From NCBI GenBank assembly GCA_029552745.1, contig JAKPDK010000152.1, positions 310,001 to 374,000 of the forward strand: a stretch of 64,000 nt of DNA, read 5' to 3'. This document shows positions 29,707-33,489 of this stretch, piece by piece. The first letter of the stretch is position 1. Each line of letters begins with the position of its first letter. The notes below the pieces were generated by a model. It saw only the letters and a list, made by a program, of their open reading frames with translations, made no database searches and was not told the origin of the DNA. Source of the DNA: Candidatus Hydrogenedentota bacterium. GTDB lineage: Bacteria; Hydrogenedentota; Hydrogenedentia; Hydrogenedentales; SLHB01. The position numbers and the translations under genes were made by a program.

Positions 29707-30069
29707 GTGAGTAATAAGCGGATTCTTATAGTGGACGATGAGGAAAACATTAGGTTCGCACTCAAACGATGGTTCGAGTGGAACGGCTATGAAGTCGACG
29801 TGGCGGACGATGGAGATGTCGCGGTTGAAAAATGTCGGTCGTCAGCATACGACGTTGTGACACTAGACATTGAAATGCCTAGGATGAATGGAAAACACGC
29901 GCTAAAAGTCATCCGTGAATGTCGTCCCGAGACAAAAGTGATCGTTTTGACAGGGTATTCTGAAGAGTTGACTGATCCAGCCCTTCAAGGTGCGCAGAAG
30001 ATCATGATCAAACCAGTGAGTTTAACCGTCTTAGAAAAAGAAGTTCGCGAACTCATCGAAACTCCGTAG
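29707..30069 (+). CDS. Stand-alone response-regulator receiver domain
   Basis: A CheY-like receiver with no output domain (120 residues). RILIVDDEENIR supplies the acidic pocket (D10, D11), DVVTLDIEMPRMNG has the phospho-acceptor aspartate near 53, VLTGYSE the conserved threonine, and IMIKPVS the lysine. It should receive phosphate from a histidine kinase and act by protein contact. The nearest kinase gene is 24 kb away (53.8 kb); no partner adjoins it. Start is GTG with AAGG upstream. Confidence 0.92.
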   Translation: MSNKRILIVDDEENIRFALKRWFEWNGYEVDVADDGDVAVEKCRSSAYDVVTLDIEMPRMNGKHALKVIRECRPETKVIVLTGYSEELTDPALQGAQKIMIKPVSLTVLEKEVRELIETP

Positions 30070-30088: not shown

Positions 30089-30955
30089 CTATTCTTTGAT
30101 ACCGGTCAGGACAATCCCCTTTACAAAATACTGTTGTGCGGAAAAGAAGATGATAATAACAGGGATAACCGCTACCAAGCTGGCTGCCATGATGTAGTTC
30201 GCAAACATCGCCTCCGCGCTCTTAAACATATAAATCCCCATGGAAATGGGGTATTTCACGTAATCGTTCAGATAGATCAGAGGACCTTCAAAATTGTTCC
30301 ATATCCCGATGAAACTGAGGACGCATATGGTGGCTACGGCGGGTTTTGATAGAGGGACCATGATGGTTAGAAAAATTCGCCACGTAGAGCATCCGTCTAT
30401 GCGGGCAGCATCCTCAAGGGCTGTAGGTATGGTCTTGAAAAACTGCCTCATCAGAAAAATGTTGAAGACCCCGCCCCCGAAATAGGCTGGCACAATTAGC
30501 GGCAGCCAAGTGTTCACCCATCCAATCTTATTAAAAAGAATAAAGATGGGAATCATTGTCACTTGTCCCGGCAGCATGATGGTACTGAGAAGGACCACAA
30601 ACAAGAAGTCTCGGAAGGGCCAGCGCAACCTTGCGAAACTGTATCCGACCAAACAGGAACTAAGAACCATTCCAAAGAGCGCTAACCCAGTAATAATGAA
30701 CGTATTGATTATGAAAATGTGGAATGGCAAAACCCGGAAAATTTCGACATAATTGCTAAACCGGGGTGGGTTTGGTATCCACACCCGCGGCACCTTATAA
30801 ATTTCATAAAACGTTTTCAGGCTGTCGCCCAACGTGATGAAAAAAGGTATCGCAAACAAAAAAGACAAAACGATCAGCACAATCAAGCCAAGGGCACGTT
30901 CCACGCGCCTTGTCCACTTCATGCTGCCTTTGAGATCAGATTTCTCCATTGACAC
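30089..30955 (-). CDS. Sugar ABC transporter permease (MalG/CUT1 type)
   Basis: Inner-membrane permease of a CUT1-type carbohydrate importer. Six hydrophobic segments span the 288 residues. The EAA loop reads ALEDAARIDGCSTWRIFLTIMVPLSKPA near 190-217 and contacts the ATPase. It begins with GTG, sharing one base with the stop of the fused binding-protein/permease gene upstream (TAGTG); ATG at 30947-30949 is an alternative. No ATPase gene lies in the window, so a shared MsmX/UgpC-like ATPase encoded elsewhere is expected. Confidence 0.94.
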   Translation of the reverse strand: MSMEKSDLKGSMKWTRRVERALGLIVLIVLSFLFAIPFFITLGDSLKTFYEIYKVPRVWIPNPPRFSNYVEIFRVLPFHIFIINTFIITGLALFGMVLSSCLVGYSFARLRWPFRDFLFVVLLSTIMLPGQVTMIPIFILFNKIGWVNTWLPLIVPAYFGGGVFNIFLMRQFFKTIPTALEDAARIDGCSTWRIFLTIMVPLSKPAVATICVLSFIGIWNNFEGPLIYLNDYVKYPISMGIYMFKSAEAMFANYIMAASLVAVIPVIIIFFSAQQYFVKGIVLTGIKE

Positions 30956-33489
30956 TACGCTTTCTTTTCACCTTCATAATAAACCCAGACCGCACTCGAA
31001 CGAATGACAAGCATCGTCATTGCCAAGATAATTACGAAAAGGATCCATGCCAGGGCAGAGGCATACCCCATCTCGTAGTGAACAAACGCCTTGATATACA
31101 AATGTACGACATAGAAAAGCAACGAATTGTCTATACCCCCGGTGCCATTTGTAATGATGAAAGCCTGCATGAATATCTGTAGAGAGCCTATCATACCCAT
31201 AATGAGGTTAAAATAGATGGTGGGAGTCAACATCGGAAGAGTGATATTCCAGAACTTCCTTAACCGACTTGCTCCGTCCAAGTCAGCCACTTCGTAGAGT
31301 TGGTCGGGGACACCCTGAAGTCCGGCTAGAAAAATGAGCATACCTCCACCACCCGCGCCCCATAACCGCATGATTATCATTGCCGGCTTTGCCCATGCTG
31401 GGTCGCTTAACCATTGGGGAACCGGTAAATCGATAAAAGCGAAGATTACCGATTTATCGAGCATGTAGTTAAGCCAACGAAGAAATGCGTTTAGTGGCCC
31501 ATTAATAGGATTAAAAATATACATCCACAGGATGACCGTAGCCACACCTGCCACAATACTAGGTAAGTAAAACGTAGTGCGGAAAATGGTGATGCCCCGT
31601 ATCTTTTGATTTAACAAAAGGGCAAGCCCCAAGGACAAGGCTAGATTCAAAGGAACAGAAAAAACAGCAAAATAGAAGGTATTATAGAGCGCTTTTCGTA
31701 CCAGGGGATCTCCGTGGACGGGATCACTTGAAAAGGCACGGATAAAATTACTCAACCCGATAAACTCAATCTTGTCCAGCGATTTGTACGGGTCCCATTC
31801 ACAAAAACTGAGCAAAATACTGAATGCGATGGGGAATGCCGTGAACAAAAATAATCCGATAATCCAAGGTGACGCAAATAGGAAACCTTCGAGTGCCTCT
31901 TGCCGCATCATGCGGCTCTTGAGCATATGAACACTCTCCTGGCATTCCTGAAGAAAATGTTTTCTGATGGGCGGGACAAGCATAAACCCGCCCACAATAA
32001 ACATTAGAATAATCAACGTGAGCCCGGACGCTTTTTGCCAGGAATAAGGGTCATGCTTTTTGGGTGGGGCGCCCCATTCCTCCAAGTCCTTCTCTAAAAC
32101 TTGGTTAACCAAAGGTTCCAATTTAGGAATCCAGAGAGCAGGAGATGTGTCTTCTTTACGAGCGTCTGCTGTGTTCAGAACATCAAAGACTTTTTGCATA
32201 GCATCGCGAAGTTCCAAGTATCTCGGCGTGAGAGGTGTCAGTTTTCCATAATCAAATGCCTCGATAGCAACTTCCTCTCTCGCAGGAGTTTCTGGATTAG
32301 GATACGTTTCTTCTGCAATCTTCCGCCGAACCGGAACCCCGCGTTGATTCCCCCCAATATCTCTCTGGATTTCATCGCTGAGCAAAAGCTTTATGAAACG
32401 CCAGCCGATTTCTTTCATCTCCGGACTTGCGTGAGCATTCAACGAGATACCGTCCCAAGTCACACGTGTATACCTGTCTCCATGCGGTCCAATAGGCATG
32501 TGTGCTACATCCCACCGCATGGCGTCTTTCACACGATTCAGCGTCGGAATCATGTAGGACCCTGCCGGTACCATCGCCAACCTGCCTGTCAAGATCTGAA
32601 CTTCGGTGCCAAAACCCTCCATTTCACCCGACCATGCAATGGAATGGTCTTTGTACTTCATGTCATAAATGAACTGTGCAGCTTCGACGCTTCGTGGCCC
32701 ATGTATGGCACTTTTTGTGAAGTCCTCGTTTAGAACCTCTCCTCCAAAACTCCAGAGAAACGGCTCAAAACCCAAAAAACCGAAGGCCAGATTTGTACCG
32801 AATTGGTCCAGATTACCGTCGCCATCGACATCTTTCGTTAATCGCCGCGCAATGTCTCTAAACTCATCATAGGTCCAATTATCATGTGGATAGGGAATTC
32901 CCTCGGCATCAAAAATGTCTTTGTTGTAAAACATGATGATAGAATTGCCATCCCACGGAAGTCCGCCTTGAAACCCGCGATAATTGAAACTTGCCAAGGC
33001 AGTGGGCAGATACACTCTCTCGAAATTGGGGTCACGTTTTTCTTCTGGAGTCTCCATGTACTCCAGTTCATCGGCTAGGTCTTGTTCTATTTTGTCGCTC
33101 CGACGCATGATATAGGGGCGCAAGTCCTCCAAATATCCTCGAATCGCATAGGTAGGAAATATTTCATCATCCATAAGGATAATTTCGGGGGCAGTATTGG
33201 TCACGAGTACAAGCTGAAGCTTGCGGCCATAATCGCCCACATACCACTCTCGTTTGACACGAATTCCAGGATTTTCTTCCTCAAACTGCTCACAGACCCT
33301 TCGAAAGAAATCGTTGTCAACAAAGTTCGCCCAGTAACAGAACCGGATTTGCTTTTCCTGGGCGCTGGCAACACCCCCAACCGCGGACAAAAGACAGAGA
33401 ACCCATATTGTAATTACAATGTGTCGCACCTTATGAAACCCCAGTAATTCGACTATCTCCAAAAATGGCACACTACAATAACAAGTCAC
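30955..33489 (-). CDS. Sugar-binding protein fused to ABC permease (MalE-MalF type)
   Basis: One 844-residue polypeptide combines two importer parts usually made separately. A signal sequence (about 22-43, HIVITIWVLCLLSAVGGVASAQ) leads into a family 1 extracellular solute-binding domain (about 46-475: FCYWANFVDNDFF, NTAPEIILMDDE, FYNKDIFDAEGIPYP). A membrane helix at about 488-508 and a cytoplasmic stretch follow. Then comes a MalF-like permease (about 535-840) with EAA loop EVADLDGASRLRKFWNITLP near 727. The reading frame is continuous, so the fusion is not an obvious assembly artefact. Start could be GTG at 33429 instead. Ligand unknown, presumably a sugar or oligosaccharide. Confidence 0.9.
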   Translation of the reverse strand: MTCYCSVPFLEIVELLGFHKVRHIVITIWVLCLLSAVGGVASAQEKQIRFCYWANFVDNDFFRRVCEQFEEENPGIRVKREWYVGDYGRKLQLVLVTNTAPEIILMDDEIFPTYAIRGYLEDLRPYIMRRSDKIEQDLADELEYMETPEEKRDPNFERVYLPTALASFNYRGFQGGLPWDGNSIIMFYNKDIFDAEGIPYPHDNWTYDEFRDIARRLTKDVDGDGNLDQFGTNLAFGFLGFEPFLWSFGGEVLNEDFTKSAIHGPRSVEAAQFIYDMKYKDHSIAWSGEMEGFGTEVQILTGRLAMVPAGSYMIPTLNRVKDAMRWDVAHMPIGPHGDRYTRVTWDGISLNAHASPEMKEIGWRFIKLLLSDEIQRDIGGNQRGVPVRRKIAEETYPNPETPAREEVAIEAFDYGKLTPLTPRYLELRDAMQKVFDVLNTADARKEDTSPALWIPKLEPLVNQVLEKDLEEWGAPPKKHDPYSWQKASGLTLIILMFIVGGFMLVPPIRKHFLQECQESVHMLKSRMMRQEALEGFLFASPWIIGLFLFTAFPIAFSILLSFCEWDPYKSLDKIEFIGLSNFIRAFSSDPVHGDPLVRKALYNTFYFAVFSVPLNLALSLGLALLLNQKIRGITIFRTTFYLPSIVAGVATVILWMYIFNPINGPLNAFLRWLNYMLDKSVIFAFIDLPVPQWLSDPAWAKPAMIIMRLWGAGGGGMLIFLAGLQGVPDQLYEVADLDGASRLRKFWNITLPMLTPTIYFNLIMGMIGSLQIFMQAFIITNGTGGIDNSLLFYVVHLYIKAFVHYEMGYASALAWILFVIILAMTMLVIRSSAVWVYYEGEKKA

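Follow-up and report, generated by a model that had tools for sequence, protein, structure and literature searches.

A sugar-binding domain joined in frame to a MalF-type permease in Hydrogenedentota points to a tethered oligosaccharide importer

Introduction

A stretch of 64,000 nucleotides from a Candidatus Hydrogenedentota bacterium (contig JAKPDK010000152.1; the whole stretch analysed is referred to below as the window) carries a gene in which a sugar-binding protein (SBP) and a MalF-like permease of an ATP-binding cassette importer occupy one reading frame. This raises the question of whether the join exists in the living cell and, if so, whether the product functions as an importer with its binding domain permanently attached. 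The evidence presented below indicates that the system is most probably a CUT1 oligosaccharide importer, in which MalF carries one tethered binding domain, the fusion is paired with MalG, and transport would be energised by the sole MalK-type ATPase detected in the genome.

Results

One frame encodes a binding domain, an extra helix and a permease

Positions 30955-33489 of the minus strand form a single uninterrupted frame of 844 codons, counted from the first GTG and without any sign of a frameshift. Both Pfam families are found intact in the one protein, SBP_bac_1 at residues 55-375 (E 4.3e-25) and BPD_transp_1 at residues 635-826 (E 1e-11). Between them lies a hydropathy peak at residues 490-508 (Kyte-Doolittle value, KD, 2.44), and the AlphaFold2 model of the whole chain places a helix at residues 483-503; this predicted transmembrane helix is termed TM0. 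The gene is followed by that of a MalG-like permease, the TAG stop of the former and the GTG start of the latter sharing one base within TAGTG. An initial annotation of the window had proposed the in-frame join within one 844-residue chain, the added membrane helix and the shared base, and all three are borne out. The features are as follows.

30955..33489, minus strand: SBP-MalF fusion gene, longest reading 844 residues (open frame and Pfam)
33427..33429, minus strand: GTG at residue 21, the likelier start codon (judged by where the signal peptide lies and where the orthologues begin)
33361..33429, minus strand: predicted signal peptide, residues 21-43, ending ASA|QE and without a lipobox cysteine (hydropathy peak 24-42; A-x-A rule)
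32074..33360, minus strand: oligosaccharide-binding domain, residues 44-472 (Pfam, AlphaFold2 confidence, structural superposition)
31966..32043, minus strand: extra transmembrane helix TM0, approximately residues 483-508 (hydropathy and AlphaFold2)
31870..31965, minus strand: predicted cytoplasmic link with a helix ahead of the first permease helix (TM1), residues 509-540 (putative orientation)
30958..31896, minus strand: MalF-like permease core, residues 532-844 (Pfam, model, structural superposition)
31228..31293, minus strand: EAA loop EVADLDGASRLRKFWNITLPML, residues 733-754, expected to contact the ATPase (motif pattern; role as in type I importers)
30089..30955, minus strand: MalG-like permease of ordinary length, 288 residues (start overlaps the fusion stop by one base)

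Translation may in fact begin at the GTG of residue 21, in which case the precursor would comprise 824 residues. Two features favour this codon over the first GTG: it marks the beginning of the signal peptide, and the orthologous proteins start near the same residue. A G-rich stretch is located just upstream of it, and the signal peptide, with an end that agrees with the A-x-A cleavage rule, follows directly.

Structural models of the two halves

The binding domain was modelled with confidence in the whole-chain AlphaFold2 prediction, with predicted local distance difference test (pLDDT) values of 75-97 for most ten-residue blocks. Structural superposition of this model gave Z scores of 42.3 over 384 residues with 5f7v (cycloalternan), 41.0 with 5ysd (beta-1,2-gluco-oligosaccharide), 39.0 with 6rjy (arabino-oligosaccharides) and 36.8 over 375 residues, at 20% identity, with 6ffl (Bdellovibrio MalE domain). 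Pfam and superposition thus agree on the oligosaccharide-binding fold of a CUT1 binding protein, and the model suggests oligosaccharides as the substrate class. The sugar itself cannot be named, since the Z scores of the oligosaccharide-binding matches are too similar and the NCBIfam cut-offs of named transporters were not reached.

The permease half including TM0 (residues 465-844) was modelled separately from 26 alignment rows, which gave a mean pLDDT of 86. The permease part superimposes on 7cag_A, a permease of LpqY-SugABC, with a Z score of 26.9 and on the MalF chain 9bcr_H with a Z score of 25.5, TM0 falling outside the range that is spanned by a fifth or more of the rows in the superposition. 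One large alignment that mixed fused, separate SBP and separate permease rows was left out of the folding because the C-lobe of the separate SBPs had been misaligned into the permease. The EAA loop, which contacts the ATPase in type I importers, was recovered in the fusion by pattern match (motif EVADLDGAS); the corresponding loop of MalG, EDAARIDGCS, was read by eye, the strict pattern giving no match to MalG.

Orthologues in nine other genomes

A search of 68 genomes of the phylum returned near-whole-protein matches in one frame, at 48-66% identity, from nine other genomes (G046, G049, G042, G044, G001, G003, G041, G040 and G015). Each of the nine frames holds both domains and a hydrophobic stretch between them, so that the full-length homologues by which the initial annotation was to be checked do exist. 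A frameshift or misassembly was accordingly rejected on the strength of these nine fused orthologues in other assemblies. The locus L031 is apparently identical with the record of L131 and was not counted as a further genome.

The orthologues belong to a clade of 12 rows, in which ten are fused, in ten genomes, and two are split (L129 in G049 and L130 in G050). One of these genomes, G049, has both forms, the fused L131 and the split L129. The SBP of L129 and L130 stops where the fused proteins enter TM0, and their permease opens with the cytoplasmic link, without TM0. Close relatives with separate genes, which the initial annotation regarded as refuting a fusion, thus exist in part, as two of the 12 rows; however, since the ten fused members come from ten genomes, the split rows suggest that the fusion has been gained or lost, not that it is an artefact. 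A single fusion origin for the clade was not rejected by the approximately unbiased (AU) test (p 0.094 for the permease, 0.108 for the SBP), and either a fission in L129 and L130 or two fusions would be compatible with these values. The main clades are the same in separate trees of the SBP and permease parts, as would suit two domains inherited together.

Inspection by eye for a lipobox motif revealed a lipobox-like cysteine in the SBPs of L129 and L130 and in four fused proteins, and none in the window protein. In the four fused proteins (L136, L137, L138 and L139) such a cysteine would leave the binding domain anchored on either side.

Frequency of the fusion and conservation of TM0

Loci were taken by score from the listed matches in the phylum, not from all of them, and 120 MalF-type frames remained after removal of 17 duplicates. 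Of these, 63 are fused, the window included, 33 lie next to an SBP gene of their own, 20 have no recognised SBP nearby and four are truncated where the fetched stretch ends. With a profile built from 16 fused proteins, 30 of the 68 genomes had matches at E <= 1e-140; both domains are spanned by most of those listed, though not by every one. Within the genome of the window, five of the 11 MalF-type frames among the fetched loci are fused (the window gene, L110, L125, L126 and L127), the other six being split or unclassified (L115, L116, L117, L119, L120 and L128).

Two of these sister fusions have additional regions. The fused SBP of L126 (L126:2655-5417) has a cysteine-rich, zinc-ribbon-like insertion at residues ~255-357 (Pfam DZR, E 0.00084, below the cut-off), which is odd in an exported domain. 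In L127 (L127:1655-5152), a fusion of 1165 residues, a TPR-like region precedes the binding domain, the Pfam TPR match likewise lying below the cut-off.

A hydrophobic stretch between the SBP and TM1 was found in all 63 fused frames, with KD values of at least 1.6 in 60 of them and at least 1.2 throughout. None of the 33 split permeases has such a stretch ahead of TM1, the top value there being 0.58. The segment after TM0 is more positive than the one before it in 59 of the 63 fused frames. The helix and the charge pattern fit a need to return the chain to the cytoplasm, because the N-terminus of the permease is inside.

The MalG partner and the ATPase

The overlapping gene supplies a MalG of ordinary make, without a large insert, and the system thus has the two distinct permease subunits, MalF-like and MalG-like, of a CUT1 importer. 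In the genome OB_MalK and TOBE_2 each gave a single match (E <= 0.001), both in the same ATPase of 370 residues, which has Walker A and LSGGQ motifs and is encoded on a different contig. The two families were matched in 10 and 13, respectively, of 14 control genomes. This single MalK-type ATPase presumably powers the genome's CUT1 importers. The sole detected gene of this type (G000:C106:143073-143444) stands against approximately 11 MalF-type permeases. On the other side of malG, on the opposite strand, a response-regulator-like gene adjoins (29707-30069, by eye).

A different form of MalG accompanies many of the other fusions. Among the rows for which a MalG was found, two predicted helices of MalG lie more than 250 residues apart in 27 of 49 fused systems, in none of 30 split systems and in none of 12 without a recognised SBP; one more large-gap MalG occurs among the three cut rows that have a MalG. 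As most of the 27 fall in one clade, they represent few events. In L110, L141, L153, L161 and others, some 320-600 residues separate two helices near the N-terminus, and the insert is probably located outside the membrane. No Pfam domain was found in the MalG insert of L110 or L141. In the genome of the window, the MalG inserts of two sister systems (L125:3226-6135 and L126:5273-7339) contain short, apparently repeated helical motifs resembling a stretch of GH42. A glycoside hydrolase within MalG, as the Pfam GH42 matches would have it, was considered and not upheld, the matches covering a short, repeat-like helical motif by eye; no glycosidase chain of the PDB matches these two inserts at E <= 0.1.

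Fusions in a second phylum

Among the fetched loci of Candidatus Auribacterota, 16 fused genes were found in 12 of 44 genomes. Their frames were checked, and all 16 have a predicted helix between the domains. The notion that the fusions are confined to Hydrogenedentota was thereby refuted. In three loci of Auribacterota (L255, L257 and L259), a lone MalG gene with a large insert lies between two fused SBP-MalF genes of the same strand, so that two MalF types may there share one MalG.

A wider contig search returned L031 as the only fused locus among 79. In larger searches, 3 to 5 candidates were scored per genome at strict thresholds with the Hydrogenedentota-derived profile, and matches spanning both domains were listed for Chloroflexota (17; 201 genomes), Bacillota (6; 299 genomes), Spirochaetota (1; 198 genomes) and Actinomycetota (7; 296 genomes). 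All 31 of these listed spanning matches proved to be separate SBP and permease frames. The frames of each were checked because neither long frames nor stop counts are reliable signs: of nine regions with a long open frame or spanning match none is fused, eight having separate frames and L231 no SBP frame that could be found, and a single stop within a match may simply be the end of a fused gene (L177, L258). In Pseudomonadota (299 genomes) nothing was returned at the profile threshold, a result that is uninformative. As the searches were strict and based on Hydrogenedentota, rarer or more distant fusions, the Bdellovibrio type among them, would have escaped notice. Phylum names beyond Auribacterota, Bacillota and Hydrogenedentota were read from organism names.

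The fusions are spread over several clades. When 79 fused and 54 split permeases from Hydrogenedentota, Auribacterota and other groups were placed in a quick tree, at least nine changes of label were required, four of which are forced by well-supported branches. When unclassified rows are kept, fused versus split needs six changes without Auribacterota, or nine. The trees bear long-branch warnings, and such counts cannot separate gain from loss. The scarcity of tethered sugar importers suggested in the initial annotation does not hold in view of the 63 fused frames among the 120 sampled, the second phylum and the characterised MalE-MalF precedent.

Discussion

Proposed mode of action and alternatives

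From these features we infer the topology, the choice of partners, the substrate class and import itself. The signal peptide would export the N-terminal, two-lobed binding domain, and TM0 would then cross the membrane from outside to inside, which would let the six-helix MalF core, with its cytoplasmic N-terminus, start in its usual orientation. Partners of the fusion would be the product of the overlapping malG gene and a pair of MalK-type ATPase subunits, whose gene lies elsewhere in the genome. Held by the pore, the binding domain would catch an oligosaccharide, dock and pass the sugar on as ATP closes the ATPase dimer. Because the membrane part is a MalF/MalG pair, there would be one binding domain per transporter, as opposed to an excess of free binding protein; the initial annotation had likewise proposed one such domain per transporter, and the count of one per MalF stands.

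Several observations weigh against a tethered importer. By eye, no ATPase gene adjoins the SBP-MalF/MalG pair in the window and no adjoining sugar-metabolism gene hints at a substrate. The whole-chain model is poor in its permease part, with most ten-residue blocks below 55, because two alignment rows alone cover the permease there. The window protein itself shows little difference in charge between the two sides of TM0 (+1 inside, 0 outside). Finally, the split relatives L129 and L130 sit within the orthologue clade. These two, with their separate genes, are also what could be cited for an assembly or sequencing error that has joined genes separate in the living cell. Such an error is hardly credible, as nine other assemblies show the same in-frame join and helix, and a slip would not make a helix each time; four further fusions are present in the same genome. 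A chain that is made fused and then cut, for instance in the link after TM0, would yield an anchored binding protein and an ordinary MalF. TM0 alone would suffice as an anchor, and the SBPs of split relatives are lipoprotein-like, so that membrane anchoring may be a common need. Still, we consider cleavage unlikely: no sign of a cut was seen here, where cleavage sites were not searched for, and a single frame kept in many lineages would gain little if the product were always cut.

The lack of an adjoining ATPase gene, together with the response-regulator-like gene beside malG on the other strand, could instead be taken to mean that the fusion is a sensor whose binding domain signals through the permease. 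However, the EAA loop is kept and the core models as a normal MalF, a MalG-like partner overlaps the gene, and a MalK-type ATPase is present in the genome; distant, shared MalK-type ATPases such as MsmK exist elsewhere. A sensor is very improbable on this evidence. Improbable, too, is the coexistence of both forms, whether through an internal start that gives extra free MalF or through a free SBP from another locus that also feeds the permease. Free SBP genes do lie beside other permeases of the genome, but none adjoins the pair studied here, and the concurrence of the SBP and permease trees suits a unit that is inherited whole. A tethered CUT1 importer is the most probable reading of the locus.

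Implications

Across Hydrogenedentota and Auribacterota, the tethering of MalF may have been repeatedly gained or lost, always with an added helix and, in two lineages, with a large extracytoplasmic MalG domain, such that many sugar importers would be self-contained, with fixed binding domains rather than a free pool; we hold this broader picture to be evenly poised between right and wrong. Why some importers tether their binding protein, when free ones may outnumber transporters many-fold, is a question of wider interest. Fused and split close relatives in one phylum, and even in one genome (L131 and L129 of G049), constitute matched pairs. With these, the cost and benefit of tethering become testable in terms of speed, affinity, economy and loss of binding protein to the medium.

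Comparison with known systems

The closest parallel in architecture comes from another bacterium: Licht et al. (2019, Res Microbiol 170:1-12) reportedly described, to go by the title, an importer of maltose/maltodextrin in which MalF carries one fused MalE domain. We take this protein to be the MalE-MalF of Bdellovibrio bacteriovorus, presumably with the SBP at its N-terminus, and we take 6ffl to be the binding domain of that fusion, which fits the molecule name 'transport permease homologue'. The window protein likewise has an N-terminal SBP and MalF in one chain, a CUT1-type binding domain being fused to MalF in both, one per transporter. The two are remote in sequence (phmmer E 2.9e-7 for 6ffl), and whereas the Bdellovibrio fusion is characterised as an importer of maltose/maltodextrin, for the window fusion the models suggest no more than oligosaccharides as a class.

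OpuA and GlnPQ resemble the window system in their covalent binding domain and are alike in working principle. They belong to other families, defined by a homodimeric membrane subunit, and have at least two binding domains per complex, two being named for OpuA in the title of one paper. The window system differs in having a MalG-like partner in place of a homodimeric osmolyte or amino-acid subunit, and its nearest relatives are sugar importers. The nearest permease fold to the window core is that of Mycobacterium LpqY-SugABC (7cag_A), in which LpqY is a separate lipoprotein. MalEFGK2 of E. coli has the same subunit types and its MalF chain is nearly as close (9bcr_H); there MalE is separate and outnumbers the membrane parts 30 to 50-fold (PMC9045158).

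A literature search of best-matching papers, in which subscription journals are thinly covered, returned no report of an SBP-MalF fusion for Hydrogenedentota or Auribacterota. The SBP-MalF architecture and its basic working are already known; the present analysis adds how frequent the fusion is, that it has been gained or lost repeatedly, that an extra helix always accompanies it, and that fused and split forms exist side by side.

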